A DNA stretch of 64,000 bases from Helianthus annuus (lineage: Eukaryota > Streptophyta > Magnoliopsida > Asterales > Asteraceae). Location: positions 87,259,912-87,323,911 of the forward strand of contig NC_035445.2 of the NCBI RefSeq assembly GCF_002127325.2, read 5' to 3'. The notes under the pieces were generated by a model. That model was not told the DNA's origin. It saw only the letters and a program-made list of their open reading frames with translations, and ran no database searches. The translations under genes and the position numbers were made by a program. Shown piece by piece: positions 2,787 through 54,690 of the stretch (its first letter is position 1; each line of letters begins with the position of its first letter).

Positions 2787-5700
2787 TGTGACACCCCAGG
2801 AAAAAACCAGGAAACCAAGCAACCTAACTAGCTTCCTTAGTAACTACGTGCTAAATTTCGGGACGAAATTTCTTTCAAGTTGGGGATGATGTGACAACCC
2901 GAACTTTCAAGGTCTTTCCTTGACACGATACTTGTTCCACACTACCTCCTCATAATTGTTTGAGTGGTATCTGATGCATATTTGATTTATTGTTGATGCA
3001 TATTTGATGAACTGTTGAACTGTATTTTCATGATTCATTGTGTTGTAAAATGTGCACCCTTGTGTTATGATAAATGAATTGTTTTAAAGGTTGGTGAGTG
3101 AATGAAAGATTGAATTGCGTAGTGTTTGAAATAATTTAATTAAAGTTCCGTATCAAGTATGTCCATTTTAAACTTATATGTGTACATATCTAATTCAATT
3201 ATAACAAGCGAATACTTGAAGCTAAACCCTTAATCCGTTTAACCGACCGAACCGTTTGTACTAAAACATCTGTTTCGCATGTAGATCCAACTCATCCGCG
3301 TAACTCGAAACTAATGAGGCCTGAACTATAACTCCCTTATTACCTCTTTTTATTCGTTCAGTTGACCAATTAGAACATTATAATTTGTTGGTTTGTATTC
3401 AGCTATATATATATATATGTATGTTACCAACTAAATTAGAACAGTCCACTCCTCCCTTCCGATTGTTTTGGACAGCCACTTTGGCCCACGCCCCATCTCT
3501 CCTTTAGTGCTGTATCTTTTGTTGTTGAAGCCCAAGCCCACCAAATCGCATGCATGAATACTGAATTATATACGTGATATTGTGATTCAAAGTAAAGAAA
3601 GGTAAACAAAACCCTAAACCTCACGTATGACTCTTAGCCGACACACCCCCTTCCCCTGCTTCTCCCCCTCTCATTTCCACCGGTGACCGGAGATCAGATT
3701 TCGATCGGCGCCTTCCCTTCTTCGATGTCGCATACGCCAATCAAACCTAACAATTTCACCACACTCTCCCTCTAGATCCCTACTGCAATCATTACCGACG
3801 GCTGTCGGAGCCGGCTAACCGGACGCCAACGAATACACTTCACTCTCTTCCTCCCACTCTCGCTCCTTCCTTTCTCTCAATGTTCTGGTCGGTTGTGCAG
3901 CGGAACGTGGTGGTGCTGTTACATGAACATAATGATGATTGATGGTGCAGGACGCCGGCATCGACAACAGCGGTTGAGGTGGTGGTTCGCTTCAGACGGA
4001 AAGACTCACCAAATCGAGTCGATAAACTGACGAGGTGTGAGGTATAGATCTGTTTTTAATTGTGTTTTAGATGATCTGTTAATTGTTTTCTTTTGTTATG
4101 AATGTTTGAAAAGATCAGTGGTGATGTTATTATGTGCACTTGCTATTGGAAGTTGAATTGAATGTTCTATAAATTGCACATTACGTATGATAGTGGTAAA
4201 CTGCTAGTGCATAAATTGTGAATTGTTTGGGAAATCGTGTGTTGGATTGTGTCCGATGTTTAGAATGCTAACGTTTTTTTTAATAGTCTCATAATAGTCC
4301 TACATGCTTGGTTGATTTAGTTAGGTTTGAGAATAAGAAAACATTGTTGTGCATGAGGGTCATATATTAAACAGATGAGTATTTAGGTTGACGTGCAAGA
4401 ATCTGAGGGGTGTGGGCGTGTGATTAAATGATTGAATTGTGTTTGAAATTGTTTAACTAAATTATGTGATCCACTCCATTGAAATATGGGTATTTGATAA
4501 ATATAAAGCATATGAGGGTATTATGGAAACTGTTGTATTATATATATATATAACTTGATGGAGAAATAGAGCACACTCCTTGGGTCGGGTAACAACATGC
4601 GACCACACCATCACTTGGGCCGATTTGGAGTAATGGGCCATGCTTATGAGTAAACTGCACACCCACTTAGTGAATTTGTGAACTTGTATCATGCATGTGG
4701 ATTTATTTGGGCCGAAGAGTTTTAGTAGATCGCACCAATCCTAAGTGAAGCCTTAACTTGAATTATTTACATACTTGTGCGTTGAAGGACTAAACATTGG
4801 ATGTCTTACAAGCATGAAGTCATGAAACGAACTTACTTATTGACAGAATACATGCTAAGTGATTACTTGATGGTATTGGATTGACAGATTAACTTGTATG
4901 ATTTGAATTACATGTGTGTGCTACATGTATCTTGATTGTGTGACATGTGAACAAGGAATACATGAATTGATCGTATGTGAAACGTGTGTGTTATGTACAC
5001 CTAAGACTGATTGTTATTGGTAACCCTTCTAGGACGTGTTTGATCAACTGTTAAACAAGCACTTAATCTAACCGAGCAAACCAAAGGTGAGTTCACTACA
5101 TTCGAGCATGCGTCCCAGTGGTTGGGGACAGTCAGCAGTATGGGTAAAAACGGGTATATTGGTTAATATTCTCACCTATCATTTTCGTAAGTCCCTTATT
5201 AAGTTACCTGGAGGGTAACGGGTATTAGTTGGTAGCGCTACTTAGGTTTGGCACCCTCACACCGCTCCTAGATAGGATGGATGTGAACTAATGACCCAGT
5301 CGTGGCCCAGTACTAGATAGGAGTACGTGGGAAGGGCAGTCATGTACATCAGGAGCCGTCTTGTTCGGAATTGAGATATTAACAATATTACTTGCATTTG
5401 TCAGTGAACTGTTTTACATACAACTGGTAACAAACGTTTTCTTAAACTGTGAACTCGCCAGCTTTGTCTGATACACTTGTTACATGCTCGTAGGTCGTTA
5501 GGTATCTTGGAATAGGAACTTGCTGGCTGGAGGGCATGAGTGGTCATGGTTCACACCGATTGGTTTTATTTATTGAACATTGGTTCTTACATTTGTTGGA
5601 AAATGTTTATATTGTGATACGTTAACGCTTCCGCTGAATTTGCTGGTTTCGAATAACTTATGTTTGGATTTTAATATTAGATGATGAAACCTTATTTTAA

Positions 5701-5791
5701 ACTTATGGATTCAATGTAATTGGTGGCTCGTTGCTAGTTGGTCACACGCCTAACAGGGATACTCCCTAGGTGGTATTTTGAGGGTGTGACA
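2787..5791 (+). repeat. Element B 5' LTR
   Basis: 3005 bp, almost identical to 10007-13006 (roughly 17-20 substitutions by eye plus changes in TA and T tracts). It carries an internal PPT-like block and a second LTR-like start (TGTGACAACCCG at about 2891). It also has a CT-rich stretch around 3640-3900 that resembles a plant gene 5' UTR, and a TA microsatellite near 3402-3418 whose length differs between the copies. Confidence 0.95.
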
Positions 5792-5794
5792 GTT

Positions 5795-5807
5795 TGGTAT
5801 CAGAGCC
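5795..5807 (+). other. Primer binding site of element B (tRNA-iMet)
   Basis: TGGTATCAGAGCC lies 3 nt after the LTR end at 5791. It matches the 3' end of plant initiator methionine tRNA, the usual primer of Ty3 chromoviruses. Confidence 0.93.
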
Positions 5808-7669
5808 ACTGGTTATAGTGAACTTGGTTTTAAAACGTTTTGTAAAACCAGACTATAACCGAATAGTTCTGAATACGTGAATACGACCATGACACTCAGC
5901 TCCAGACTGCAAGGTTCGTCTCTCGTATACTCATTGTACTGTATAACTAGTGAACACATACATATGATAGTGCATGTGATTGCACATTTAGCACAACATA
6001 ATGAATTCATGTATTACTTGCATGTGTTAGGTGACTGATAGGGTGGTATTTCTCTAAACATTCATGACTTACCTTTCGTGATGCTCTTTGTTTGCTACTC
6101 GAGGTTGGGGAACCATTTGACATGAGTTAGGAGGAGCTGAGATGAACATGCAAATCACAATATTATTGTGGGTGCACACATAATAATAATGTGGGGTGCA
6201 TGCGAGTCCCAGTGAGGCTTAACGAGTGTGAGAGGGGTTCCGCCCTGTTAATCGTTGTTATGTTAGAACTCAGCAGCCTATAGGAGTCATAGCAGTGAAT
6301 ATCTCCTACTCGAACATGATCTTTTCACCCCTTTCTGAATCCTTACGAATCTCGATGCTATCGAGTATCACCTGATCACATACCTGAACGCCTAGCGAAC
6401 TGTGTAGAATGTTAGGTGCTAGTACGAACGTCCCTGAGTTGGATGGCTCAGCGTCAAATGATTGGACTATACTTCCTTCACTTATCTTTGTTTGCTGGAA
6501 CTTAGCGTGTTGACGCCTTAGACCCCGAAGTGCGATCACTTCTGCAACACTCTCGTGGCGTACCGTGTATTACTCAGTCAACTTGCAAGAACGATGGACA
6601 AGAGGGTAAACGTAGTACCTTACCGACTTCAACATTTGAACGACCCTAGTTACTGGCAACGAACATCAGCGATTTGACTCCAAGCGAATCCTTAACCCTA
6701 GTCAACAACTTATGGGAACCGAATTTTACGAATCAATCAGGACATAAACGATGACAATTGACCATGAAGAGGAATGTGTAACTGCCAGCACAATGAGTAG
6801 CGCCTCGGAATGTGGCACGAAATGTGAAGGGATGGACATTGTTGGTGAAAGATCGCAGGACTCCATTTCGAGCAACAGCACTAGAAGCAACCGTCACGAT
6901 GCCAGCAAGGTACTCACAAATCATGACTTTCGGTATGGAAATGATGGTGGCTTCAACAGGGAATGGCTGGTGTTAAAGCAAGACGCCAACAACCGAGGGG
7001 GCAATGACGGTTTCTGGAATTCTAGTAGCAGTTGGAACAATACGGGATATGGTACTCGCGAAGGACATTTAGTGTTGGCGTGAGCGACGCCAGGATTATA
7101 ACAACATGGCGGCCTACACGTTCTTAGTAACTAACCACCTCGTCACTGTTTTGCTTAACCCTGATGCTTCTTGAAACCGAACCTGCTGTGTAATCGGCGG
7201 ATGACAGGTCAGATGAAACTGTGTATATTAGTTCGGATGCAAACTCGACCTTGTGGGATAAGTGTTCGACATCGACCTTTCTTCTGTTGTTGTTGTTCCT
7301 GATAGATGTGCCCTGTGAAGAGAACATTCTACGTATCCCTCTCCTAGTGGAGGATTGTTATCTGTTCTAACGTGTCAGAGTGGTGCAGGGGTTAGCATCA
7401 ATTCAGCAGTGAAGGCCATAAGTGTCCACGGAAGGATTAGTCCACTATGATAGCACTCGTTACTGATGTCAAAGCTAAGGAAAATAGGATCGAGGATCTA
7501 CCAATTGTTCGTGATTCCACCCAGCATGCTACGAGAAGAACTATCAGGTTTACCCTCACACCGTTAGGTGGAATATCAGATAGGTATCATGTCAGGAGCA
7601 GCCCTTGTTACTAGTATTCCTTATTGTCTTACACAGGGAGGTTGCGGGAACTGCCTATTCGACTTCAGG
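5808..7669 (+). pseudogene. Decayed leader and gag region of element B
   Basis: This should hold the leader and gag of element B. I see no continuous reading frame and cannot recognise a capsid domain. The longest open stretch (6751-7083, 110 codons) encodes an Asn/Ser/Gly-rich segment with no motif I can name; it may be a remnant of the low-complexity gag tail. The decay contrasts with the near-identical LTRs on either side. Confidence 0.5.
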
Positions 7670-8950
7670 AACTATTGGACATGAGTTTTATCAAAACTAG
7701 TTTTTCGCTTTGGGGAGCCCCGGTTATATCAGTTAAGAGAAGCCCTTTTCTTATGTGTACTGATTATTGAGAACTCAACAAGGTGACAGCCAAGAACCAT
7801 TTGCCTCGACCACGTATTGAAAACTCGTCGATCAGTTGCGAGGAAACAAGCTTCCATTCGAGGAGTGGCTAGTGAACGAAGTATCATCAGATGGAAGCCC
7901 AAGAGGAGAATGTTCTCCACGCAACATGTCGAACGCAATGCAGCAGCAGCTTCAAGGATCACATAAATCGATCGTATTTGTTGGCGATGTTCTGAATCAT
8001 GACCAGGAGAAAGGAGCACCACGGACGACATCTATATATTGTTTAGAGCCCCAGAGGGAGGAGCCATTTCGTATGAAGTGTTGCGAAATATGACATCTGG
8101 ATTCAAGGGATTTTCGAGAATAGCGTCGCTGTAATCTCTTTAGCACAGCAGCGTGCTGTGTTTGTAGGAGACAAAATAGGAGGACGTCTCTCCACCTTTC
8201 GAATTCCAACACTGCAATGCACTGAGCACCATGTTACCCGAGGGTGCGGGTGATTTAGTGGTATACTATGATGGTTCGAATCAGAGTCCCAGATACACAC
8301 CGACGCAACACGAGAGTGTAATGATTTATGTGATGGGGGTACAAGGAGGAACTGCATGACACACAACTGGCGGTGAAAACCGTGGTCTTGGGATTTTAGA
8401 TGGAGGCATTACTAGGACGGTACCAGATGCGTTTTTAGACCGATCACAAGGGCCTCCAACGTACCTTGGTTTCGTCAGAGCTAAATTGCTTAATGTCATG
8501 GCTGGAGAGAACTTTAGGATGATTACAACTATGAAATCCGAACATGCACGAGCTTTGTAGCTCGCTAACGACTCTAACTTGCCTAACCAAACTCGCTCTG
8601 TTCAAACTGGAGAACTGAAGGAAGAGGATTTTGAAGTTGAATCCATGTGAGGCATGGAGAAACAGCCTTTGACAGGTCGGACGATACTCGTTAAACGAAT
8701 GTGGGTCTCCTTATACGGCAACGGTAGGGAACTTGTGTTGAGCAAAGCACACCAGCTTCGCCATTCTTGTCGTCTGGGTTTTGATGAGAGGCATTAGGAT
8801 TTAAAAACCTTGTACTGGTAATCGGGCATGAAGGCCCACCTAGCTATGTATGGGAATGATATTTGACTTATGGGAAAGTCAAGGTGAAGTGCTAACAACT
8901 AGAAAACACCTATATGGAAAGCGAAAACAGACTACCATGGATTTGGTCGC
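7670..8950 (+). pseudogene. RT and RNase H remnants of element B
   Basis: Around 7680-7850 the translation, read across several frames, still resembles the Ty3 RT start (an FIRPS-like segment, a WGAPV-like block, then RNHLPRPR-like text matching the RYPLPRIDD motif of element A). Around 8230-8570 there are echoes of RNase H (LPEGAGDLVVYYDGS at its start). Around 8740-8830 there is a trace of the integrase zinc-binding region. Stops and frameshifts break every domain, so no active enzyme can be made. Confidence 0.7.
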
Positions 8951-9059
8951 TAGTCTAGTTGCAACTCGAAACGGAAACAATATCACCTAGATGATTGTTG
9001 ATTGTCTCATGTAACCAGCACACTTTTTAGCCAGCAAGGAAACATATAGGTTTTCTACA

Positions 9060-9925
9060 CTTGTAGTCGTCTACCTGAAGGAAGTGGTTGATAGGCACGG
9101 GGTGCCAACTTCCATTATCTCCGATCACGACCCACAATCTGCATCTGACTTGTGGCAAGCAATGCACAAATCCTTTGGCTCACGTCTAGACATGAGCACA
9201 ACATATCATCCACAGACGGATGGGCAGACTGAACGCACCATCCATACTCTTGAAGACATGCTTCGAACATGTGTAATCGACTTTGGTAACGGCTGGGAGC
9301 GGCATCTACCTTTAGTGGAGTTTTCGTATATCAACAGTTACCCCACCAGCATCCAGGTTACCCCGTTCGAGGCCTTGTGCGGATGGGAGTGCCGATCACC
9401 TCTTTGTTGGGTAGAAGTTGGAAACAGCCAAATCACTTACACAGAGCTCGTCGTAGACACAACAGAGAAGATTGCTCAGATACAACAACAAATGGCGGCT
9501 GCTCGTGACCGTCAGAAAAGCTACGCTGATAAGCGCTGGAAACCACTCGAGTTCCAGGTTGGGAATCGAGTGCTACCTAAAGTCTTACCTTGGGAAGGTG
9601 TAGTTCATTTCGAAATCACTAAGAGAATTGGCAAGGTGGCCTACAGGTTGAATCTACCCGAAGAACTCCGTGTAGTTCACAACGTATTCCATGTGTCGAA
9701 TCTGAAGAGGTGTCTGTCAGATGAAACCCTCACAGTTCCTTCCAAGAAGCTCACCATCGACGATTAGTTGCGATTTGTCGAAGAACCAATAGGAATCTTG
9801 GACTGGGAAGTCAAGATTCTCAAACGCACCAGGATACCTACTGTTCGAGTTCGTTGGAACTCCCGTTGTGGCCCAGAGTTTACCTGGGAACTAGTAGACC
9901 AACTGAAACACAAATGTCCCTAGTT
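9060..9925 (+). pseudogene. Integrase core and chromodomain remnant of element B
   Basis: The 227-codon open stretch 9084-9767 covers the end of the integrase core (RHGVPTSIISDHD with a catalytic Asp, HPQTDGQTER with the catalytic Glu region) and the integrase C-terminal part (FHVSNLKRC). A stop at about 9765 separates it from a chromodomain-like tail (VRVRWNSRCGPEFTWE) at about 9780-9925, which has a further stop near its end. It is homologous to the integrase of element A but clearly diverged. The first catalytic Asp region lies in the damaged DNA upstream. Confidence 0.85.
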
Positions 9926-9967
9926 GTTCGAAATCAATGAAACCACTACTGAGGCTGAAGCTACTGC

Positions 9968-9988
9968 GGAATTTCGGGACGAAATTCC
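9968..9988 (+). other. Inverted repeat upstream of the PPT (element B)
   Basis: Arms GGAATTTCG and CGAAATTCC (9 bp) with loop GGA, located 18 nt before the 3' LTR. The same core, AATTTCG-GGA-CGAAATT, sits at the same place in elements A and F. Confidence 0.85.
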
Positions 9989-10006
9989 AAACCAACGGGG
10001 TAATTA
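9989..10006 (+). other. Polypurine tract region of element B
   Basis: A short purine-rich run (AACGGGG) followed by TAATTA immediately precedes the 3' LTR start at 10007, which is where plus-strand priming is expected. Confidence 0.7.
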
Positions 10007-13006
10007 TGTGACACCCCAGGAAAAACCAGGAAACCAAGCAACCTAACTAGCTTCCTTAGTAACTACGTGCTAAATTTCGGGATGAAATTTCTTTCAAGTT
10101 GGGGATGATGTGACAACCCGAACTTTCAAGGTCTTTCCTTGACACGATACTTGTTCCACACTACCTCCTCATAATTGTTTGAGTGGTATCTGATGCATAT
10201 TTGATTTATTGTTGATGCATATTTGATGAACTGTTGAACTGTATTTTCATGATTCATTGTGTTGTAAAATATGCACCCTTGTGTTATGATAAATGAATTG
10301 TTTTAAAGGTTGGTGAGTGAATGAAAGATTGAATTGCGTAGTGTTTGAAATAATTTAATTAAAGTTCCGTATCAAGTATGTCCATTTTAAACTTATATGT
10401 GTACATATCTAATTCAATTATAACAAGCGAATACTTGAAGCTAAACCCTTAATCCGTTTAACCGACCGAACCGTTTGTACTAAAACATCTGTTTCGCATG
10501 TAGATCCAACTCATCCGCGTAACTCGAAACTAATGAGGCCTGAACTATAACTCCCTTATTACCTCTTTTTATTCGTTCAGTTGACCAATTAGAACATTAT
10601 AATTTGTTGGTTTGTATTCAGCTATATATATATATGTATGTTACCAACTAAATTAGAACAGTCCACTCCTCCCTTCCGATTGTTTTGGACAGCCACTTTG
10701 GCCCACGCCCCATCTCTCCTTTAGTGCTGTATCTTTTGTTGTTGAAGCCCAAGCCCACCAAATCGCATGCATGAATACTGAATTATATACGTGATATTGT
10801 GATTCAAAGTAAAGAAAGGTAAACAAAACCCTAAACCTCACGTATGACTCTTAGCCGACACACCCCCTTCCCCTGCTTCTCCCTCTCTCATTTCCACCGG
10901 TGACCGGAGATCAGATTTCGATCGGCGCCTTCCCTTCTTCGATGTCGCATACGCCAATCAAACCTAAAAATTTCACCACACTCTCCCTCTAGATCCCTAC
11001 TGCAATCATTACCGACGGCTGTCGGAGCCGGCTAACCGGACGCCAACGAATACACTTCACTCTCTTCCTCCCACTCTCGCTCCTTCCTTTCTCTCAATGT
11101 TCTGGTCGGTTGTGCAGCGGAACGTGGTGGTGCTGTTACATGAACATAATGATGATTGATGGTGCAGGACGCCGGCATCGACAACAGCGGTTGAGGTGGT
11201 GGTTCGCTTCAGACGGAAAGACTCACCAAATCGAGTAGATAAACTGACGAGGTGTGAGGTATAGATCTGTTTTTGTAATTGTGTTTTAGATGATCTGTTA
11301 ATTGTTTTCTTTTGTTATGAATGTTTGAAAAGATCAGTGGTGATGTTATTATGTGCACTTGCTATTGGAAGTTGAATTGAATGTTCTATAAATTGCACAC
11401 TACGTATGATAGTGGTAAACTGCTAGTGCATAAATTGTGAATTGTTTGGGAAATCGTGTGTTGGATTGTGTCCGATGTTTAGAATGCTAGCGTTTTTTTT
11501 AATAGTCTCATAATAGTCCTACATGCTTGGTTGATTTAGTTAGGTTTGAGAATAAGAAAACATTGTTGTGCATGAGGGTCATATATTAAACAGATGAGTA
11601 TTTAGGTTGACGTGCAAGAATCTGAGGGGTGTGGGCGTGTGATTAAATGATTGAATTGTGTTTGAAATTGTTTAACTAAATTATGTGATCCGCTCCATTG
11701 AAATATGGGTATTTGATAAATATAAAGCATATGAGGGTATTATGGAAACTGTTGTATTATATATATAACTTGATGGAGAAATAGAGCACACTCCTTGGGT
11801 CGGGTAACAACATGCGACCACACCATCACTTGGGCCGATTTGGAGTAATGGGCCATGCTTATGAGTAAACTGCACACCCACTTAGTGAATTTGTGAACTT
11901 GTATCATGCATGTGGATTTATTTGGGCCGAAGAGTTTCAGTAGATCGCACCAATCCTAAGTGAAGCCTTAACTTGAATTATTTACATACTTGCGCGTTGA
12001 AGGACTAAACATTGGATGTCTTACAAGCATGAAGTCATGAAACGAACTTACTTATTGACAGAATACATGCTAAGTGATTACTTGATGGTATTGGATTGAC
12101 AGATTAACTTGTATGATTTGAATTACATGTGTGTGCTACATGTATCTTGATTGTGTGATATGTGAACAAGGAATACATGAATTGATCGTATGTGAAACGT
12201 GTGTGTTATGTACACCTAAGACTGATTGTTATTGGTAACCCTTCTAGGACGTGTTTGATCAACTGTTAAACAAGCACTTAATCTAACCGAGCAAACCAAA
12301 GGTGAGTTCACTACATTCGAGCATGCGTCCCAGTGGTTGGGGACAGTCAGCAGTATGGGTAAAAACGGGTATATTGGTTAATATTCTCACCTATCATTTT
12401 CGTAAGTCCCTTATTAAGTTACCTGGAGGGTAACGGGTATTAGTTGGTAGCGCTACTTAGGTTTGGCACCCTCACACCGCTCCTAGATAGGACGGATGTG
12501 AACTAATGACCCAGTCGTGGCCCAGTACTAGATAGGAGTACGTGGGAAGGGCAGTCATGTACATCAGGAGCCGTCTTGTTCAGAATTGAGATATTAACAA
12601 TATTACTTGCATTTGTCAGTGAACTATTTTACATACAACTGGTAACAAACGTTTTCTTAAACTGTGAACTCGCCAGCTTTGTCTGATACACTTGTTACAT
12701 GCTCGCAGGTCGTTAGGTATCTTGGAATAGGAACTTGCTGGCTGGAGGGCATGAGTGGTCATGGTTCACACCGATTGGTTTTATTTATTGAACATTGGTT
12801 CTTACATTTGTTGGAAAATGTTTATATTGTGATACGTTAACGCTTCCGCTGAATTTGCTGGTTTCGAATAACTTATGTTTGGATTTTAATATTAGATGAT
12901 GAAACCTTATTTTAAACTTATGGATTCAATGTAATTGGTGGCTCGTTGCTAGTTGGTCACACGCCTAACAGGGATACTCCCTAGGTGGTATTTTGAGGGT
13001 GTGACA
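10007..13006 (+). repeat. Element B 3' LTR
   Basis: 3000 bp, collinear with 2787-5791. Differences are scattered single substitutions and shorter TA tracts. It ends GGGTGTGACA followed by the TSD ATCCT. Confidence 0.95.
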
Positions 13007-13372: not shown

Positions 13373-15407
13373 AGGTTCTGCTTCTGGTTGCAGGGGTCTT
13401 GGGAAATAAATGGGGGTATTTTTCTTTCATTCGATCATCACGTTCCCAGGTGTATTTTGGACCATGTCTTGCATTCCAACGAACTTTGACGAGTTTAACA
13501 ATGCTCCTGCAGGTTTTGTTTATCTTCCAATCCGTAACCTCAACTGGTTCTTCAACAAAATGGAGCGTGTCGTCAATATGAATCTCGTCTGTGGGAATGA
13601 CAACAGTTTCTTGCGTTGGACTCTTTTTCAAGTTTGATACATGAAATGTATCGTAAACACCATTCAGCTTGGCAGGTAAGTCCAACTTGTATGCTACAAA
13701 ACCAATCCTTTCCAGAATCCTAAATGGACCAATATAACGCGGATTCAACTTTCCACGCTTCCCGAAGCGTGCCACACCCTTCCACGGTGATACCTTCAAC
13801 AATACCAAGTCTCCTACCTCAAACTCTAGAGGTTTCCTTCTTCTATCCGCATAACACTTTTGACGATCACGAGCCGCCTTGATGCGATCTCGGATCTGTG
13901 CAATCTTATCTGTGGTTTCCTGGACCACTTCAGGACCAACCAATTGTCTATCACCTGCATCAGACCAACAAAGCGGTGATTTGCACTTGCGTCCATAGAG
14001 AGCTTCAAATGGCGCGACTCCAATACTGGTGTGGTAGTTGTTGTTGTACGAAAACTCGACCAATGGTAAATGTTTATCCCAGCTACCACCCATATCCATA
14101 ACACATGGTCTCAGCATATCTTCCAATGTCTGAATAGTCCGTTCGCTCTGTCCATCGGTTTGTGGGTGAAAAGTTGTACTCAGATTTAATTGAGATGCAA
14201 ATGCTTCTTGAAAGGACTGCCAAATCCTTGACACAAACCTTCCGTCTCTATCAGAGATGATTGAGAGAGGCACTCCATGACGTGCAACAATCTCTCTCAT
14301 GTATATTTCAGCTAACTTGCTTGTGTTGTCCTTCTCTCTAATGGGTAAGACGTGCGTAGATTTTGTTAACCGGTCTACTATTACCCAAATAGTGTCGTGA
14401 CCTTTGGGCGTTCTTGGCAACTTTGTTATGAAATCCATTGAAATCTGTTCCCATTTCCACTTGGGAATCTTAGGTTGTTGCAGATGTCCTGAAGGCTTCT
14501 GGTATTCAGCTTTTACCTTGGCGCACGTTAAGCACTTGCTAACGTAAACAGTAACATCGCCTTTCATCCTAGGCCACCAATAATAATCCTTAAGATCTTG
14601 ATACATCTTATCCGCTCCTGGGTGGATAGAGTACCGTGATTTGTGAGCTTCATCAAAAATAACTTTTCTCGAATTACCAAACAGAGGTACCCAAATCCTT
14701 TTCATGAAACATAACGTTCCTTCCTCGTTTGGTACCAATTGCTTCTCCATTCCACGGAGATATTCCTTTCCTGTGTTTCTTTCTTTTAGAGCTTCTTTCT
14801 GCGTGGCATGAATGCGCAGGGAAAGATCTGTCTGGATAATCATCTTTAAAGCCCTAACCCTTATGGGCTTGATTCTTTCTTTACGACTTAGGGCATCGGC
14901 GACCACATTCGCCTTCCCTGGATGATACTTTATCTCGCAGTCGTAATCGTTCAATAATTCAACCCAGCGTCTTTGTCTCATGTTCAACTCCTTCTGGTCG
15001 AATATGTGTTGCAGGCTCTTATGATCCGTGAAGATTATACACCTTGTACCATATAAATAATGTCTCCAAATCTTCAACGCAAATACCACTGCGCCTAGCT
15101 CCAGATCGTGCGTGGTATAATTCTTCTCATGAACCTCCAACTGGCGTGACGCGTAAGCTATAACTTTCTGGCGTTGCATCAGCACGCAACCCAAGCCTTG
15201 ACGCGAAGCATCACAATATACCACGAAATCATCCGTTCCTTCTGGTAGTGATAAGATCGGCGCATTGCAAAGCTTGTCTTTCAATATCAGGAATGCTTCT
15301 TCCTGTTTGATTCCCCAATCAAACTTCTTATCCTTCTGTGTGAGGAAGGTCAATGGTTGAGCAATCTTTGAAAAATCCTCAATAAACCTTCGATAGTACC
15401 TAGCCAA
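13371..15407 (-). CDS. Element A pol: RNase H, integrase, chromodomain (678 aa open segment)
   Basis: Part of the pol polyprotein, which copies and inserts the element. It opens with the RT thumb (ARYYRRFIEDFSK), then RNase H (VVYCDASRQGLGCVL at residues about 62-76, and a TTHDLELGAVVFAL block). The integrase zinc-binding region follows (HPGADKMYQDL to CLTC), then the DDE core: ISMDFITKL, IISDRDGRF and the HPQTDGQSERTIQT block. The segment FHVSNLKK leads to a C-terminal chromodomain (VKVRWNARHGPKYTWE, ending KYPHLF). The chromodomain is known in this clade to steer insertion to chromatin. The frame is continuous with the RT segment upstream except for one in-frame TGA (minus strand, about 15447-15449, at a position that is normally Trp). 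The domain is complete but cannot be translated from the polyprotein start. Confidence 0.93.
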   Translation of the reverse strand: MARYYRRFIEDFSKIAQPLTFLTQKDKKFDWGIKQEEAFLILKDKLCNAPILSLPEGTDDFVVYCDASRQGLGCVLMQRQKVIAYASRQLEVHEKNYTTHDLELGAVVFALKIWRHYLYGTRCIIFTDHKSLQHIFDQKELNMRQRRWVELLNDYDCEIKYHPGKANVVADALSRKERIKPIRVRALKMIIQTDLSLRIHATQKEALKERNTGKEYLRGMEKQLVPNEEGTLCFMKRIWVPLFGNSRKVIFDEAHKSRYSIHPGADKMYQDLKDYYWWPRMKGDVTVYVSKCLTCAKVKAEYQKPSGHLQQPKIPKWKWEQISMDFITKLPRTPKGHDTIWVIVDRLTKSTHVLPIREKDNTSKLAEIYMREIVARHGVPLSIISDRDGRFVSRIWQSFQEAFASQLNLSTTFHPQTDGQSERTIQTLEDMLRPCVMDMGGSWDKHLPLVEFSYNNNYHTSIGVAPFEALYGRKCKSPLCWSDAGDRQLVGPEVVQETTDKIAQIRDRIKAARDRQKCYADRRRKPLEFEVGDLVLLKVSPWKGVARFGKRGKLNPRYIGPFRILERIGFVAYKLDLPAKLNGVYDTFHVSNLKKSPTQETVVIPTDEIHIDDTLHFVEEPVEVTDWKINKTCRSIVKLVKVRWNARHGPKYTWERDDRMKEKYPHLFPKTPATRSRT

Positions 15408-15449: not shown

Positions 15450-16112
15450 TCAATTCTTTATCGCCTCGATCTTGGCGGGATCCACGTGGATTCCGTCTCC
15501 ATTAACCACATGTCCAAGAACTTGGACTTCACGTAAGCAAAATTCGCACTTCGAGAATTTGGCATACAACTTTTCCTTCTTCAGCAACTCCAAAATAGCT
15601 CTTAAATGATGTTCGTGCTCAGCCTTTGTCTTTGAATAGATCAAGATATCGTCTATGAACACAATCACGAACTTGTCTAGGTACGGCTTACAAACTCTGT
15701 TAATCAAATCCATAAAAACAGCTGACACGTTTGTCAACCCAAACGGCATAACCAAGAACTCGTAATGTCCATATCGAGTTCTAAAAGCGGTCTTAGGAAT
15801 ACTTTCCTCTTGTATTCTCAGCTGATGGTATCCAGATCGAAGATCGGTTTTTGAATAAAAGCTTGAACCTTGCAGCTGGTCGAATAGGTCATCAATCCTT
15901 GGCAGAGGATACCTATTCTTGATAGTCAAATTGTTCAACTCCCGGTAGTCAATACACATACGAAAACTACCGTCTTTCTTCTTGACAAACATAACTGGAG
16001 CTCCCCAAGGTGAGAAGCTTGGTCTGATAAATCCTTTGTCTAATAACTCTTGAAGTTGTGTCGACAATTCCTGCATCTCTGACGGGGCAAGTCGATAAGG
16101 TGACTTAGCCAC
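15450..16112 (-). CDS. Element A pol: reverse transcriptase segment
   Basis: Ty3-type RT fingers and palm. It shows the entry segment [55 protein letters not shown] text (here [13 protein letters not shown]), MPFGLTN and the catalytic box FIDDILIYS. It stops at an in-frame TGA, after which the same frame continues into RNase H. At its other end a 1-nt deletion near 16105 puts it out of frame with the protease segment. RT is the core copying enzyme of the element; all catalytic residues I can check are present. Confidence 0.93.
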
Positions 16113-17050
16113 AGGCGGGCGCCTGGAACTAAGTCAATGTGGAACTCCACTTGCCTTTGGGGTGGCAATCCTGGCAAGTCTTCTGGAAAGACTTCCGGAT
16201 ACTCCTTCACGACAGGGATGACTTCGATCTTCGGATCAGCAGCTTCTTTATCCACGACGTGTGCCAGGAAGGCAACACATCCCTTCCGTAAACACTTTCG
16301 AGCTTTCAAACAGCTGATAATTCTCAAAGGCGTATCGTGCTTCTCTCCGTGAACCACGATCGTTTCTCCATCTTCTGTCGGGATACGAATGATCTTTTCG
16401 TGACAAATAACCTCAGCCTTGTTTCTTGACAACCAATCCATCCCTACTACCACGTCGAAGCTTCCCAACTTGACTGGTAGTAGATCTAAAGTGAACTCAC
16501 GCTCTCCCAACTCGATTACACAACCTCTGACAACTTCATTGGCTTCAACTAGCTTTCCATTAGCCAGTTCAATTGAGTACGGAATATCTAATTTACTAGC
16601 AGCTAACCCAAACATATTCTTAAATTCTAATGATACGAAACTATGGTCGGCACCAGTATCAAACAAAACGGATGCAAAGCGTTGATTTATAGGGAACGTA
16701 CCAGTAACAACATTGGGATCCTGGCGCACTTCCCTCGCTCCGATATTAAAGACTCTTCCACGGGCTTGATTCAGCGTTGGGCATTCCTTCTTGAAGTGCC
16801 CAATATCCCCACAGTTAAAACAGCCCAGTCTTTGACCATTACCGCCTCCGCTCCCAGCTTGAACGTTGTTTTTGTTGCGGTGGCCTCCCCGGCCAGCATT
16901 AACCCAACAAGTATCCTTCAAGTGGCCAACTTTCCCACAAGCTTCACATATTTTTGGCCCACACCGGCCAGAATGATGACGCTGGCAGGTGTTACACTTG
17001 GGCTGTGTACCCATATAACCCTTCCCTTTCTTCTCAATACTGGTTGCAGC
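16040..17050 (-). CDS. Element A nucleocapsid zinc knuckles and aspartic protease
   Basis: Begins after the in-frame stop that ends the capsid ORF. Two clear CCHC knuckles ([14 protein letters not shown] and [14 protein letters not shown]), preceded by a further Cys/His-rich motif ([12 protein letters not shown]), mark the RNA-binding nucleocapsid. The retropepsin-like protease follows, with active site [12 protein letters not shown] and a VVVGMDWL strand. The 3' end holds the linker to RT ([26 protein letters not shown]), where a 1-nt deletion breaks the frame. The protease would cut the polyprotein into its parts. The frame is the same as gag, with only one stop codon (TAA, 17053-17051) between them. 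Confidence 0.92.
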
Positions 17051-17718
17051 TTAGACCGGTGTGCTTGATTCTCCTTTCTTGCCAACACTGCTTGTTCCTT
17101 GCTTGAAGTTCGAGAATTTCCTTTTGTTCTCGCCAGATGACTCTACGTGAGTCTCTTTCTTCTTCTGCTCAGCATTCGAAAACTTGTTCAAACGGATGAC
17201 CTCCTCAGTAAGAGCCACGCTAAGGTCTATGGCTTCAGTGATTGTCGTAGGCTTGGAAGTTGTCACCATACTCATCATCTGAGGTGCTAACCCCCAGATA
17301 AAGCGCTCGATGCGTTTGAATTCGGGTTTGACCATATAAGGCACCACATGAGACAAATCGTGGAACCTTTGAACATACTCTGCAATTTTGGGACCTTCCA
17401 TTTTCAAGTGCCAGAATTCAGTTTCCAGCTTCTGAATCTCCGCACGTGAGCAGTACTTCCTTCGCATGAGCTCTTTTAGCTCGTTCCATCTCATCGCATA
17501 AGCAGCGACTTCACCAAGAGTTTGCACTTGTAAGTTCCACCAAGATAGGGCTCCATCCAGAAATAGCCCAGAAATGTAGGTCACTTGCTGTTCGGGAGCA
17601 CATTTGCCCATTCGAAGAACAAACTCAGTCTTTTCAGCCCATCTTACAAAGGCAACAGCACCTCCGATGCCGTCGAAGTTCACAGGCTTGCAGTCGAGGA
17701 ACTGCTTGTAGGTGCACC
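17051..17718 (-). CDS. Element A gag, exon 2 (capsid)
   Basis: Main retrotransposon gag domain. It starts GCTYKQFLDCKP directly after the intron. The typical capsid blocks follow: VNFDGIGGAVAFVRWAEK, SWWNLQVQTLG, LKELMRRKYC, LETEFWHLKMEG and PTTITEAIDLSVALTEEV. A Lys/Ser-rich tail ends at a TAA. Gag forms the virus-like particle in the cytoplasm. The reading frame is intact from exon 1 across the intron to the TAA, and the NC/protease segment follows in the same frame. Confidence 0.92.
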
Positions 17719-17958: not shown

Positions 17959-18359
17959 CTTCTAAAAGATGGTTCACGTTGGTCAGGTCATAATAAGTGA
18001 ATGAATCATACGTATACCATTTATCAAACACATAACATCTCATGTTACAAATAAACCAAGCACATAACATCACATGTTATAAACAATCAATCCAACATCA
18101 CATATAATGAGAATACTGCGATTGCGCTATCATAAATCAAGACCACAATGTAAGGTTTACAAGTTCATAACTGTATCGTACATCATCAGTGACTAAGGGC
18201 CACAACGCCCTAATCCAAACTATCTAATCAGTGATAACAACAACCAATATACAAAACATCAAAAGTCATAATCATCAAAATGCGGTTTCCCAAAAAGCTG
18301 TGTAATCTGCACAATCGCGGTCCTCTCATCAAAAGTCTACCTACGTCGAATCAAAAGGC
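17959..18359 (-). other. Spacer between the acidic ORF and gag (element A)
   Basis: About 400 bases with no convincing ORF or motif. It is AT-rich and contains short repeats of an ATAACAT-type word near 18025-18075. Confidence 0.6.
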
Positions 18360-20001
18360 CTAAGCTGATGGCGGTGGAGGAGGGGGAAAACGAGAAAAGA
18401 GTAAACATCGCATATGCAACCAGTCTTCCTCCATAGCGCGATAAGAGCGCATCAAGTATGCTATCTGCTGCTCAGGAGTCCAAAAGCGAGCGGCAGAATC
18501 GGGGGACAGTGGACGAGGAGGGTGTGATGCTGCAGGTGGGGTCTGACACTGACAAGGTGGGCGTGGAGCTGACTCCAAAACCTGAATACGACGCGTCAAT
18601 GCGTCCTGCTGTACCATCAGAGAAGTGAGGATGTCCTCCGTTGAGTACCCGACATGATATGGGTGATATGGATCGGACAGCGGCATGATCGGGGGCGTAG
18701 TCCATAGAAATGGCTCGCTGGATGGAGTGAAGAATGGTGCAGAAGATGGTGCAGCAGTGGGAACAAAAGTAGGATGATAAATCCGGGGTACAAACTGGTC
18801 TCCTCCTGACACGAAAGGTGTATGACCAAACGGCTGTCGAGATGAACCCTCTCCAGGACGTGGTGGAGGGATGTCCTGAAGAAATGTAACAGGGAGATCT
18901 GCGCGATGCGCATCTTTGATGTGTGTGGGAAGCAAAGGAACATCAATGGGAGCTGAAGCAGGGTCTGAAACAGGCGTAACAGGGAACACGAATGGTGGGT
19001 AATCATCGTCATCGTCTATCCACCCGTTGCGGGTGTCAGCGTATCATGGATCAATGTGGGTCGCAAAAGGTGCACAGTCGAACAGCACCGGTACTGGATC
19101 AGGAAGTGGTGCAACAATAGGATCCTCTACTAGGAGTGGAGCATCAGCAGGAACGTCAGCAACATGATCATCCTCCAACGGTGGAGCAACAACAGGATGA
19201 TCGTCAACAGGTATATCATCAACAAAAGGAGCAATAGCAGGTGCATCGGCATGAACAGGGTCATGCTCTAATGTGGGGTCAGGAGCAACGACTAGCTCAG
19301 GGGCCACAGCAGGCTCCAGATCAACAAACTCTATGTCAAAATCAGCTGGATCAGCAAACAAAGGATCGACAGGGGCTACAGGATCATCCAGGGGCTGGTC
19401 TAAGTGAATGAACTCAATATCCTGGTCAGGATCAAAACCAGGTGGAAAAAACAGGATCATCATCAACAACGTGATCGAACTCAAAAATGTGTGCGGGAGC
19501 AGGTGCAGCTGATGACGCCATGTCAGGGTCGGCGTCGTGTGAGTGGTGCTGCACTCCCTGAGTGTGCGAAGGCGCGGACTCCACAGACTCAAAGGAGTCT
19601 GGAATAGGTGAATGAACAGGAGCCTCCTCTGCAGGAGCATCAGCAATGAGTAGGATATCATCAGCAGCAATAGGGACCTCACCCTTAAGGTCATCCTCAA
19701 GTGGGTCCTCCTCATACAAATCGACGTCATCGTCGGAAACAATATCGATGGGCATATAAACAACCGGATAAGCAGCAAGGGGTACAGGAGCAGGGATCAC
19801 CGCGAGTGGTAAATCCCCAGTGAGATGGCCATCAGCAGGCTCGGCTACGACGTCAGACAGCGCAAAGGGCTGGAAGTCGTCATCGTCTGTGCTGGCAGTA
19901 TCGGAAGTGTGGACCTCGTGCTCCGATGAAACTATGTCAACTGATACTATCGCCATGGGATCTGTAGTGTCTGAAACTCCGGTGTCTGATGAAGAAGGCA
20001 T
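18360..20001 (-). pseudogene. Acidic Pro/Ala-rich ORF upstream of gag (element A), two lesions
   Basis: About 545 codons in sense with gag, starting MPSSSDTGVSDTTDP at 20001 and ending in a poly-Pro tail with a stop at 18362-18360. The N-terminal two thirds are rich in Asp/Glu with Ala/Pro/Val, in repeated short phrases such as APVDPLFADPADFDIEF and VAPPLEDD. The C-terminal part has a possible coiled coil (LTSLMVQQDALTRRIQVLES) and ends RFPPPPPPSA. A 1-nt change in a T run near 19450 and one in-frame TGA near 19046 interrupt it; otherwise the frame is open throughout. I recognise no catalytic domain. Long acidic sequences ahead of gag occur in Ty3 polyproteins of Asteraceae, but I know of no assigned function. 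Confidence 0.72.
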
Positions 20002-20095
20002 GATGTCTGTAACACAAACACACATATGCACAAACAATCAATCATATAATCAAATAAACACGTTAGTCACCAATAAGCAAGCAAACATTTCTTCC

Positions 20096-20354
20096 TAGTC
20101 TCGCTAGACTACCCTCCCAGCCTCTCAGACTGATCCTCCTAGTCTCTCAGACTATCCTCCCAGTCTCTCAGACTGAACCTCCTAGTCTCTCAGACTAACT
20201 CCCTGGTCTCCCCGACCAGAACCTTCCCAATCTTAAAGATTGGCCCCTTAGTCTACATGACTAAACATTCCCAGCCTTTAGGGCTGAACTCCCTCAGTCT
20301 CCCTGACTGAACCTCCCAGCCTTTAGGGCTGAACTCCCTCAGTCTCCCCGACTG
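20096..20354 (-). repeat. Array of twelve covarying 15-nt hairpins in the leader of element A
   Basis: Twelve units, each a 5-bp stem, 5-nt loop and 5-bp stem, start at 20096, 20118, 20140, 20161, 20183, 20204, 20228, 20249, 20272, 20295, 20317 and 20340 (spacing 21-24, mean about 22). Plus-strand stems include TAGTC/GACTA, CAGTC/GACTG, TGGTC/GACCA, CAATC/GATTG and CAGCC/GGCTG. The sequence changes but the pairing stays; only unit 2 has one mismatch. Spacers are pyrimidine-rich (purine-rich in the transcript). The array lies between the PBS and the acidic ORF, in the RNA leader, where packaging and dimerisation signals usually sit. Confidence 0.9.
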
Positions 20355-20513
20355 AACCATAAATTTTAAGGAAAAAGTGCTCAAACTTTTGTTTGTAAAA
20401 ATGTTTTGTATCCTGGATCTGGACATAATGTATGCAATGTAAAAATGTTTTTGTGAGAGCCCTAGTGATCATAGTCTAGACTCGAGAAGGAATCCTAGTT
20501 CGCTATGATCAAA
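20355..20513 (-). other. Leader between the PBS and the hairpin array
   Basis: 159 bases of 5' leader of element A; AT-rich, no ORF or repeat seen. Confidence 0.6.
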
Positions 20514-20525
20514 GCTCTGATACCA
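20514..20525 (-). other. Primer binding site of element A (tRNA-iMet)
   Basis: Minus strand TGGTATCAGAGC, 2 nt after the LTR end (20528). It fixes the orientation of element A as minus. Confidence 0.93.
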
Positions 20526-20527
20526 AC

Positions 20528-22848
20528 TGTCACACCCTGGCTTTGCGGAAGCGTGGGTTATTTGGTGTGACTTCTTAATACCATAGCTTAATCACAACTA
20601 AGCTATATGAAAGTAAAACCATGATGATCATCCATTGATTCAAGTTTTAAAAGTAAAATACGACAACATTGTTTTCAAACGTCGACACATGCAACGAAAA
20701 TACTACATAACAAAATAAAATCTTGTTCATAAGACACAACCACATAACATGAAATAATATAGTTTAAGACTTGTGACTCGTCCAGGAAAAAGTCACAACC
20801 CCTAAACTTGAATGACATCACTCCTCTACGCAGCATGAAGACATAGCATACCTCGCTAGATCCCTAATTCCCTGAAATACATGTAATTTGAAAAATCAAC
20901 AAAAGTTGAGCGAGTTCATGTAAAAGTGAGTATGTAAAACCTTTGTAATACATTTGTATGTATGAAAATCCCTGTTATGTAGCAAATAAGGAAAAATGAG
21001 ATCACCATTGGTTTGCAAGGCCAATGATATGTGTGAAGTGCTGTAGGAAGACTCAAACCAAGCAGACTTTTGCGTCGGGCTCAAAGTCACCCCAAGGTCC
21101 GTACAGTTGGGCCTGGAGAGGGGGCTCGCTACACCCAGATAGATCTACCGTTAATGACCCTCGGTCCTACAATGAGGATTAATGGCCTCTAGTTTCCGCC
21201 TACCCACTCACATGATCTAAGTAGTAACCCTCCTTACGCTAACCATACCATGTATAAAAGTATCCGTAATCATTGTAACATGTATTTCACCCCCGAAGTA
21301 TAAAAACTGAAAACAGTTAAGAGAAAAGGGGGACATGAACTCACAGAAGTGCGTCTCGAAATAGTCAATCCTAATCAACCTGCTGCGTGACGACCTACAC
21401 GTACTAACTTCTATTAGACGGACGGACGTGCCTTGGCTTAAGGTTTAACGTTTTTGGGAAATAGTTAGACAACTATTTCGTATTTACACTTCTTAATTAT
21501 TTTGTAAATATATTCCTTCCCAATGATGGGGGTATTAATACATGTGTGTTTTATAATTCCTGAAAATATATTTTTAAGTCTCACTTGAAAATATATTTTA
21601 AATCACTTGTCTAAAATATTCTATCTCCAAAATATACATATTTTTCCCAAAAATATTATATTTTACTTCATACAATTTCCCAAAATAATACTTTATCAAA
21701 CTACACATTTAAGGGTATTTTCCGAAAATACATAAGTTATATTTTAAGGTTTGTGTTGCAATAATAATACCGGTGTAACTTAAATATTTATTTGTGAGGG
21801 CGTTGGTATTATTTTGGAGTCGTATTTTCATGATATTTCAAGTAATATTATTTTTACTCTAAAAATAATATATCTCTAGTTCACAAAATAATCATATCAT
21901 CACACAAGCGTTTTACTATGAAATATATATTTAACAAGTTTTATTTGCGAAAATCCACCTCCGACACTTGGCAAATTTGTAATAAAAATCATGGCGAAGT
22001 TTATTTGGAAAAACAAGTCAAAAAATATATTTATAAACACTTGTAACAAAAATATTTCTAGGTGTTATTTTCTGGAAAAATTTCGCCAGAGTTTCCTCTG
22101 TAACTGGAGGTGGCCACGCTTACTAGCGTATCATTTTCTTTTCAAAATTCAATCAAACAATTCACCAATCATCAATATACAATATTAAACATCAAACTTG
22201 TCAAAATAAGTCTAAATCGCAAACTCATGAACTTGTAAGTCTTGTAAAAATACCTAGTAACTTTCCAACATATTTAGTAGGTTTCGTTATCTTTAAAAAT
22301 AACTTTATTTTCTTAAAAACCTTACTTTTAAAGAATTTGAAGTTTTACAACTTCTAGTCAAGATTTACGAAAATATTTCTTTGTTAAATCTTCTTGTTAC
22401 ACAAGTGTTTACACACTTGTTTATTCACCAAAATGCCTTTAGTTTATGTTAGATCCGGGTTTTAAACATAACTTGCATCTTTTACTTGGTTCATCCGAAA
22501 AACCACTTGTAGATCTTTAGATCTACTAGTTTATAACCTTATTTTACAAGAAAATTTTCATTTACACAAGTTCATGTTCATGAATGGAAGGGTTCATCAT
22601 CTTACAACTTCTACACATAACATATTACTAGTTCATGTTCCATGAACATGATCTAGTATGGTTAGATGGTGATCCGTCCCACTACTAGCAACAAACGACA
22701 TAAAATAATCACAACTAGCCAAGATTTACACCATTAGTTTCTCTTTATCCAACTAGTTTATCTTACTTTCAAGACTTTTAGTTATGATCTTGTGTGTTCT
22801 TGAATTTTAACCGTTAAATCACCTATTAACCACTTTAAACAAGATCAA
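20528..22848 (-). repeat. Element A 5' LTR, truncated
   Basis: The plus strand begins TGTCACACCCTGG at 20528 (LTR 3' end on the minus strand). From 20910 it is collinear with window bases 1-1942 with small indels. Homology stops at 22848, and the next base belongs to the gag of element C. About 1.2 kb of U3, including the promoter region, is missing. Confidence 0.92.
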
Positions 22849-24132
22849 TGGAGCATCAAATGACGCCATCCGCCTCCGAATGTTTCCTTTCTCACTAAAA
22901 GACCGAGCGAAAGCTTGGCTCAATACCCTCCTAGCTGGATCGGTAAACACCGGGATGAACTAGCCCAAAAATTTCTATGTAAGTATTTCCCTCCTGCTAA
23001 AACGGCTAAATTAATGACTGAAATTAATACATATTCACAAGAGGACGGGGAATCCTTATATGAAACTTGGGAAAGGTTCAAGGAACTATTACGCAAGTGT
23101 CCACATCATGGCCTTGCGATATGGCAACAAGTATCCACTTTCTATAATGGACTGTTGCCACACACAAGGCAGACACTTGATTCTAGCTCCGGGGGACTTT
23201 TAGGTAATCGCCGCCCGCATGAAATATATAACCAAATTGAGGAAATTGCTCAAACCAATTTTCAATGGCACCCCCCCCCCCGAGGCAATAAATCCATTGC
23301 CCCGGGCACCCATAAGGTTGATGAAAGCACTTCTTTACAAGCCCAAATCGAGGCCCTTTCTTCCAAAATAAAAAAATTAGAAATGACAAAAACAGTCTCG
23401 GTTATGGCTTGTGAAGGGTGTGGTGGGCCACATGAAAATTGGAGTTGTATGAAAGAAACGGACGATCAACAGGAATCGGTAAGCTACATTGATAATAGAC
23501 CTAGGCCGTCGGGTCCTCCAACGGGCACCTACAACCAAGGATGGCGAAACCACCCAAACCTTGGTTGGAGAGAACCCGGCAATAGTAGTAACCAACAAAC
23601 CCAACGAACAAACTTTCAACAACCAAGAAATGAGTCACAAAATTTCACTCAACAACAAAGTGGACGAGAAAGGCTTGAAGATACTGTATCTCGCCTCATC
23701 TCCGACACTGAAAAGAAAAACTCGGAAAGATTTCTACAATTAGAATCAAATTTTAGAAATCAACAAACTAGTATTCAAAACATAGAAAAACAATTAAATC
23801 AAATAGCTCAAAATTTTGCCGAGAGACCACAAGGCGCATTACCTAGCAATACCGAAACAAATCCAAAAGCGCAAGTTCATCTCATCACGCTACGAAACCG
23901 CACCGTAGGGCCTGCAGAAGTGCCACCACCGACAGAAGAAACGGTACCCCCGCCTCTGCAGGAGAAGAACTCCCCTCCGTCACCAGAACCTACCAAGGCT
24001 CCTCGAGTCCCGTACCCCGGTAGGTTAATTCGTCAAAAGACCAATGAGCAATTCGCAAAGTTCGAAAGTCTATTAAAACAATTGCATGTCAATATTCCTT
24101 TTATTGATGTCCTAACCCAAATGCCCAAATAG
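22849..24132 (+). pseudogene. Element C gag, 5'-truncated and frameshifted
   Basis: The first readable stretch (from about 22848) encodes SNDAIRLRMFPFSLKDRAKAW, a capsid block. A 1-nt deletion near 22950 shifts the frame, after which DELAQKFLCKYFPPAKTAKL runs open to 24132. Later landmarks are an ETWERFKELLRKCPHHG block, an LDSSSGG box, a CCHC-like knuckle (CEGCGGPHENWSC, with three rather than four residues before His) and a Gln/Asn-rich coiled region. It ends at a TAG where related proteins continue. The run of ten C at about 23271-23280 lies within the frame. Confidence 0.88.
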
Positions 24133-48104: not shown

Positions 48105-48290
48105 AACGGACCAGTCCAATCAATCAGACCAGTCCAATCGATCAGACCAGCCCAATCAGATGGGCCAGTCCGATCGATCGACTGGGCTGATCGATCGACT
48201 GGGCCGATCGATCGAACAGGCCGATCGATCGAGCAGGCTGCTCGATCGACTGGGCTGTTCGATCGACTGGGCCAGCCGATCCAGTTGCTG
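48105..48290 (+). repeat. 17-bp CGATCG-rich array upstream of the TATA box (element F LTR)
   Basis: About ten imperfect units such as CTGGGCTGATCGATCGA, ending some 28 bp before the TATA box at 48318. Repeated at 55213-55398 in the other LTR. Confidence 0.85.
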
Positions 48291-48317
48291 TTTTCCTCCT
48301 TTTTCTCCTTCCTTGCC

Positions 48318-48325
48318 TATAAATA
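48318..48325 (+). promoter_or_regulatory. TATA box of the element F LTR
   Basis: TATAAATA in the context TGCCTATAAATACCCC, directly downstream of the first array. The second LTR has the same at 55426. Confidence 0.8.
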
Positions 48326-50180: not shown

Positions 50181-50193
50181 TGGTATCAGAGCC
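50181..50193 (+). other. Primer binding site of element F (tRNA-iMet)
   Basis: TGGTATCAGAGCC, 3 nt after the LTR end at 50177. Confidence 0.93.
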
Positions 50194-54675: not shown

Positions 54676-54690
54676 TAAAGGAGGGGATAC
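54656..54690 (+). other. Inverted repeat and PPT of element F
   Basis: AATTTCG-GGA-CGAAATT (54656-54672), followed by TAAAGGAGGGGATAC (54676-54690) and the 3' LTR. Confidence 0.88.

Follow-up and report, generated by a model that had tools for sequence, protein, structure and literature searches.

What keeps a row of short inverted repeats paired while their letters change? The question is raised by a sunflower (Helianthus annuus) locus, positions 87,259,912–87,323,911 of contig NC_035445.2 in assembly GCF_002127325.2 (64,000 nt, hereafter the window), in which twelve small hairpins follow one another within a Ty3/gypsy long terminal repeat (LTR) retrotransposon. The element lies on the minus strand, which is also the sense strand of the array. 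The initial annotation had assigned the array to the leader of a chromovirus; its placement between the primer-binding site (PBS) and gag holds, whereas the orientation had to be corrected. The array is best read as a selected secondary-structure element of the leader RNA in a Tekay/Del-type LTR retrotransposon. As an RNA element backed by double changes in the leader of a plant LTR retrotransposon, it has apparently not been described before. In line with the initial annotation, which knew of no such array, the literature searched holds no description of one; subscription journals lay mostly outside its scope, which makes this weak evidence of absence. Much of the DNA in crop genomes consists of plant LTR retrotransposons, yet how they choose their own RNA for packaging is poorly known. 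The main text of a 2025 review, in its accessible part, is silent on packaging signal, dimerisation, hairpin and secondary structure (PMC12786077).

The hairpin array of the window copy

The array occupies 20096–20354, its sense order running from 20354 to 20096, and consists of twelve hairpins with 5-bp stems spaced 21–24 nt from start to start. The units are, on the minus strand, CAGTC-GGGGA-GACTG (unit 1, 20340–20354), CAGCC-CTAAA-GGCTG (unit 2, 20317–20331), CAGTC-AGGGA-GACTG (unit 3, 20295–20309), CAGCC-CTAAA-GGCTG (unit 4, 20272–20286), TAGTC-ATGTA-GACTA (unit 5, 20249–20263), the landmark CAATC-TTTAA-GATTG (unit 6, 20228–20242), TGGTC-GGGGA-GACCA (unit 7, 20204–20218), TAGTC-TGAGA-GACTA (unit 8, 20183–20197), CAGTC-TGAGA-GACTG (unit 9, 20161–20175), TAGTC-TGAGA-GACTA (unit 10, 20140–20154), CAGTC-TGAGA-GGCTG (unit 11, 20118–20132) and the terminal TAGTC-TAGCGA-GACTA (unit 12, 20096–20111). 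The number, spacing and 5-nt arms given in the initial annotation are confirmed. Its uniform 5-nt loop applies to eleven units, and the loop of unit 12 has 6 nt. Both arms had been said to change together in eleven of the twelve units; eleven are indeed perfectly complementary, and for unit 11 the correction is that it carries one G.U pair on the sense strand, equivalent to a C.A mismatch on the plus strand.

The density of hairpins is exceptional for this sequence. Up to 11 non-overlapping Watson–Crick hairpins of 5 bp (loop 4–6 nt) fit into the array stretch, against a mean of 0.86 and a maximum of 5 in 2000 dinucleotide shuffles, and at most 5 in any 259-base window elsewhere in the 64-kb sequence without overlap with the array. 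The fold energy of 20090–20360 is likewise low (z = -5.1), and none of 200 shuffles was equally low. The array has grown partly via duplication of two-hairpin blocks of 43–45 nt, so the twelve units do not stand for twelve independent events.

Two simple accounts of the repeats are ruled out. A coding repeat does not fit, since the 21–24-nt period is not a fixed multiple of three and stops occur in all six frames. Nor is the array a general trait of elements with the same PBS: the three others in the window have no array within the next 1200 nt, only background chains of 2–3 hairpins. An Rfam search of 18000–23000 (4227 families, E up to 1) gave no match, pattern scans for the array in collections of viral and genome contigs gave none either, and a scan of viral contigs based on the reverse transcriptase found no relative.

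Arm pairing across copies of the family

Copies were sought in the 3.0-Gb sunflower assembly. Two DNA searches, in which the best 40 of 3350 and the best 40 of 4502 candidates were scored, contributed 30 loci each; 20 further copies were chosen by gag alone, by hand from a list of 150, and 10 leaders of a related family (family 2) were also fetched. The counting set comprises 67 of these 90 loci, namely 58 of the window's own family (family 1) and 9 of family 2. Left out were 17 loci repeating a place already represented and six others (L068, L076, L078, L080, L087 and L088), in which no PBS or array was seen or the array was incomplete in the retrieved piece. A fourth family was added later and stands outside the pooled statistics. 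Units were recognised by purine/pyrimidine class only, a rule that is strand-symmetric and blind to transitions, with the array boundaries then set according to the letters; in the family listing, a few terminal units still resemble chance matches. The family is very large in sunflower, with 96,942 first-look gag candidates, which are candidates rather than verified copies.

The 58 arrays of family 1 contain 749 units (6–17 per copy), 713 of them without class change, and the 9 arrays of family 2 contain 64 units (5–9 per copy). Among the family-1 units, 486 of 749 are perfectly paired, compared with a mean of 158 and a maximum of 184 after 500 permutations of right arms within copies. The initial annotation had named two observations that would speak against it, namely arms that mutate independently and absence of the array from close copies. 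As to the first, an arm pairs with its own partner perfectly in 65% of units, or 89% counting G.U, versus 3–4% and 43–53% with the arm of the next unit. Pairing with the arm two units away is perfect in 39–42%, because of the two-hairpin blocks. Single-arm mutations do occur; they are spread across the units and mostly private to one copy, the pattern that decay of copies would produce.

At least five stem sequences had been claimed initially, and this is borne out. Family 1 has five perfect arm types (TAGTC/GACTA, CAGTC/GACTG, CAGCC/GGCTG, TGGTC/GACCA and CAATC/GATTG), and a sixth, CAGTT/AACTG, occurs in six units of family 2 and one of family 4, so that double changes are found at all five stem positions. 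The site matching unit 5, which precedes the CAATC unit, is CAGTC/GACTG in most copies of the family and TAGTC/GACTG or CAGTC/GACTA in a few. Copying multiplies the units, so about five or six of the double changes are independent rather than hundreds. By hand estimate, five random second changes, each with nine other arm letters to fall on, would all meet their partner with a chance of about (1/9)^5. Because both arms change together, the folded shape rather than the letters seems to be kept. The claim that selection acts on structure and not on sequence is thus supported by the 58 leaders of family 1 and by the related families.

Inherited and broken forms

To separate inherited forms from recent damage, we defined a unit form by its arms, loop and near flanks and called it shared when found in three or more copies. 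In family 1, 39 of 189 intact forms are shared (31 perfect, 8 with G.U) and none of 76 broken ones (33 C.A, 7 mixed, 36 transversion; Fisher p about 1e-6, the copies not being independent). Part of this contrast follows from new mutations being rare by nature. Changes in unpaired letters are nevertheless passed on, as 19 of 52 loop variants with perfect arms are shared. The carriers of the commonest C.A type sit in different units and with different loops, and therefore represent mostly separate mutations. When families 1 and 2 are pooled, 11 of 86 G.U forms are shared compared with none of 46 C.A forms (mixed counted as C.A; p 0.008). Of the 58 copies, 54 have the G.U arm type of unit 11, CAGTC/GGCTG. 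The evidence leans towards RNA, and not DNA, as the acting form, without proving it, because G.U forms of the sense strand are shared among copies and C.A forms hardly are.

This asymmetry bears on two other explanations. One dispenses with selection: template switching during reverse transcription or replication would mend the inverted repeats, and block duplication would spread the mended forms. Such quasi-palindrome correction is known for palindromes, and tandem block duplication is evident here. It should, however, mend C.A and G.U alike, yet CAGTC/GGCTG occurs in nearly all analysed family-1 copies and C.A forms are scarcely shared (some of the tests being weak). It predicts neither the C-poor linkers nor the covarying stem beside the PBS, whose arms are 28 nt apart (both described below), and we consider it rather improbable.

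The other explanation takes the units as palindromic protein sites in DNA, comparable to the motifs of Sirevirus LTRs or to the motif arrays that are read by VANDAL anti-silencing proteins. The units are indeed short dyad-symmetric repeats near the 5' LTR. According to the accessible text on Sireviruses, their LTRs hold high-copy palindromic motifs, and the likeness lies in numerous short repeats with dyad symmetry within a plant LTR element; those motifs, however, lie in the LTR upstream of the TATA box, have a conserved CGG-CCG core and are read as DNA, whereas the sunflower array lies in the leader, outside the LTR, has arms without that core and varies in its letters with compensation (PMC2829016). 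A protein that reads sequence would be expected to preserve it, yet in the array the sequence drifts while pairing persists, and DNA symmetry gives no reason for G.U on the sense strand. We regard protein sites in DNA as improbable, slightly more so than template switching.

Loops, linkers and a possible Gag platform

Outside the stems, the array has a strongly biased composition. In the 58 family-1 copies, C makes up 4% of the loops and 2% of the spacers, whereas it accounts for 27% of the stem letters and 21% of those in the leader immediately upstream. Loops of 5 nt end in A in 93% of cases in family 1 and in 100% in family 2, and in family 1 the second position past the hairpin holds a G in 98%. 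Loops and spacers had been thought to vary more freely; they do vary, but within these constraints. Both are purine-rich and nearly C-free, the linkers being G-rich and of GGAGG type, and given the named hairpin structure their purines are unpaired.

A multivalent platform for Gag binding or packaging is our first choice for the function, held tentatively and at somewhat less than even confidence, because of the place of the array, its structure, its exposed purines and the zinc knuckle of Gag. The array lies between the PBS and gag, more precisely between the PBS and an acidic open reading frame (ORF) that precedes gag, which is where packaging signals lie. Each unit has a stem of 5 bp or slightly more, closed by a purine-rich loop, and is joined to the next by a C-poor, G-rich linker. 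Tandem duplication of one- or two-hairpin blocks would have built the array, and selection would keep the arms paired while their letters drift. The zinc knuckle of Gag may bind a hairpin with its exposed G/A linker at low affinity; a row of many such sites could then supply enough avidity to single out full-length RNA for packaging and perhaps for dimerisation too. Single-stranded purines would act by analogy with those of retroviral packaging signals. We thus infer RNA as the acting form, Gag as the partner and packaging as the outcome.

The closest parallels come from other retroelements. Gag of mouse mammary tumour virus binds looped purines according to the accessible text, and its packaging signal is likewise a structured leader with looped purines near the PBS; the sunflower leader differs in having up to 17 near-identical small hairpins (PMC8096270). 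The 5' RNA of Ty3, also a Ty3/gypsy genomic RNA, has a structured end with priming and dimerisation elements, but a single palindromic dimer site and, in the accessible text, no tandem array (PMC11381356).

Presence, absence and folding of the array

The gag-picked sample gives the view that is not tied to the array. The array is present in the analysed set for 15 of these 20 copies, and L087 has one that is incomplete in the retrieved piece; the PBS has at most one mismatch in 14 of these 16, and three in L073 and L086. For the remaining four, the 1-kb piece showed no leader and no array. L076 and L088 have only the acidic ORF sequence in common with the window copy, and L078 and L080 have nothing in common with it.

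More distant relatives differ in their arrays. Family 2 was found via P0062, which is 39% identical to a piece of the window's acidic ORF, and 9 of its 10 leaders have both PBS and array. Family 4 was found via P0064 (acidic ORF about 38% identical), with a PBS in 11 of 12 leaders. In family 3 (14 leaders; L104, L105 and L109–L120), three hairpins of GYCTAY/RTAGGC type stand about 45 nt apart, the middle one less paired, and the stem differences among the copies are mostly G.U/G-C exchanges on the sense strand (both by eye). These copies carry long open gag-pol frames. The tandem hairpins of family 3 are likened to the array by form only.

Several results weigh against a selected, indispensable structure. 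The units are paralogous, so their counts are not counts of independent events, and the majority of copies were chosen by similarity to the array, which biases the samples from the DNA searches, though not the gag-picked one, towards intact arrays. Some forms of the sharing test are weak: G.U versus pure C.A with near flanks in family 1 alone gives p 0.054, and with coarser forms (arms and loop) 1 of 62 broken forms is shared and G.U versus C.A gives p 0.08, or 0.23 with mixed forms. Among the 11 family-4 leaders, four have 5–9 units, three have 2, one has 1 and three have none (5-nt loops only, chance matches removed by eye). Absence from close copies is thus mostly not what is seen in family 1, but the array is not strictly required in family 4 and not indispensable across the lineage. 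No array was found after the PBS, by longest chain and by eye, in L106 and L107, which have an acidic ORF, or in L096–L098, which have a similar leader on the PBS side; the same inspection found none in the short leader of the P0117 family. Folding also speaks against rigid hairpins. The initial annotation had proposed to fold the leader, and favourable folding of separate hairpins was expected; the array region does have the low fold energy given above, but in whole-leader predictions (Vienna, 15 copies) the own-unit stems have a mean probability of 0.31 on the sense strand and a better one, 0.48, on the antisense strand. The low value arises from alternative pairing between arms that belong to different units. 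The prediction argues against hairpins that stand rigid and separate at equilibrium without protein; it weakens the evolutionary evidence without overturning it.

Across leaders, unit number ranges from 0 to 17, and this variation suggests that the array tunes rather than decides. It also means that the function of the array is testable with natural variants alone.

In L106 and L107, tandem TGGGC...GCCCA inverted repeats lie upstream of the PBS, probably in the LTR of another Tekay-like family.

The PBS-proximal stem and the acidic ORF

The leader contains a second conserved structure close to the PBS, an 8-bp stem with arms GATCATAG (20503–20510, minus strand) and CTATGATC (20467–20474, minus strand) separated by 28 nt. 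The stem covaries between families, with the versions GATCATAG/CTATGATC, GATCGTAG/CTACGATC, GATTGTAG/CTACAATC and GATTATAG/CTATAATC (the L106 partner by eye), which shows that the leader is structured. L062, L066 and individual other copies show one-sided changes, and the stem is missing from the P0117 family.

On its other side, the array is followed by the acidic ORF, whose ATG is at 20001, with the frame running downward on the minus strand. The leader from the PBS to this ATG measures about 510 nt. It contains upstream ATGs, and the structured leader could be a translational device by which ribosomes bypass short upstream ORFs and reach the acidic ORF or gag. In plant pararetroviruses, as far as the accessible text goes, leaders with short ORFs and structure control translation (PMC5902531). 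Those features make such a device conceivable, but the array has many small weak hairpins instead of one large structure, and unit number varies from 0 to 17; of the explanations weighed here we give it the least credence.

Just before the ATG, a T-rich stretch ends in TTACAG (20007–20012, minus strand), which is common to most copies and might serve as a 3' splice site. In 65 of the 67 array copies, ACAGACA (49), CAGACA (13) or CAGATA (3) lies no more than 220 nt past the array, the ATG context follows this CAG-type string immediately in 34 of 35 copies inspected for it, and a CAG close to the ATG was seen by eye in other families with an acidic ORF. This recurrence favours another role for the array, in which the acidic-ORF product binds it for nuclear export or protection of the full-length RNA, a pair resembling Rev and the Rev response element (RRE); a 3' splice site before the ORF could remove the array from the ORF's own messenger. 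An acidic ORF sits at this place in each of families 1–4, which have arrays or tandem hairpins, and L096–L098, which have no ORF over 80 codons before gag except the gag start, have no array. The accessible text on sunflower Tekay elements reports a predicted nuclear localization signal in the group 2 product of the acidic ORF (5' aORF) and a resemblance of the maize and sorghum Tekay products to a DRBM protein (PMC11728184). Cer1 of C. elegans encodes, by way of a spliced messenger, a protein (CERV) needed for export of its genomic RNA; it thus is an LTR retrotransposon with an extra protein acting on its own RNA, although the accessible text mentions no hairpin array (PMC10309623). However, L106/L107 and P0117 have the ORF but lack an array downstream of the PBS, inspection by eye revealed no clear 5' splice site, and the acidic product does not look like an obvious RNA-binding protein. 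Binding by the acidic-ORF product is accordingly unlikely in our estimate, if the least unlikely of the alternatives to Gag binding.

The array and the acidic ORF might also form one control system. A 5' aORF protein made from spliced RNA would recognise, in the nucleus, the hairpin array kept only in unspliced genomic RNA, and would export that RNA, shield it from silencing or commit it to packaging. Such a system would be a plant counterpart of Rev/RRE or of Cer1 CERV with an RNA platform tunable by copy number; we hold it to be improbable, to about the same degree as protein sites in DNA.

Anatomy of the host element and other elements of the window

The 5' LTR of the window element spans 20528–22848 (minus strand), its inner end set from the PBS. 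It is 98.2% identical over 1948 bp (20910–22848) to positions 1–1942 of the window, which represent the 3' LTR cut by the window edge. The PBS, TGGTATCAGAGC at 20514–20525 (minus strand), is what we take to be the complement of the 3' end of initiator tRNA-Met. The acidic ORF (18360–20037, minus strand) is broken into pieces of 201, 244 and 209 aa, and among the 70 matches listed for one piece the organism is Helianthus wherever named. Further along the minus strand follow a gag piece (17054–17683; Retrotrans_gag, Ty3_capsid), domain matches to a zinc knuckle (zf-CCHC) and protease (RVP_2; 16043–17014), a reverse transcriptase piece (15453–16112, domain match), and RNase H, integrase, SH3_Tf2-1 and a C-terminal stretch (13374–15407). 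With gag, CCHC, protease, reverse transcriptase, RNase H and integrase all present, the order is of Ty3/gypsy type. The C-terminal stretch looks chromodomain-like by eye, and a Pfam chromodomain search at E 0.001 gave no match.

By its anatomy and the literature, the element looks like a Tekay/Del-type chromovirus with an acidic ORF before gag. It fits the sunflower Tekay elements with a 5' aORF and may belong to their group 2, to which it is likened by description; these are likewise sunflower Tekay-type chromoviruses with an extra ORF (about 400 aa in theirs) before gag (PMC11728184). The accessible text of that study has no mention of hairpin, stem, untranslated, PBS or leader, and no leader array seems to be described there.

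Two further LTR elements were observed in the window. One is nested between pol and the 3' LTR of the host element at 2787–13006, with LTRs at 2787–5791 and 10007–13006 that are 99.2% identical and a PBS at 5795 on the plus strand. The other, at 47579–57288, has an LTR pair that is 99.8% identical and dense in ATCGATCG-type tandem repeats of 17 and 34 nt, a PBS at 50181 and a gag-like ORF of 306 aa at 51367–52287, the latter recognised by eye.
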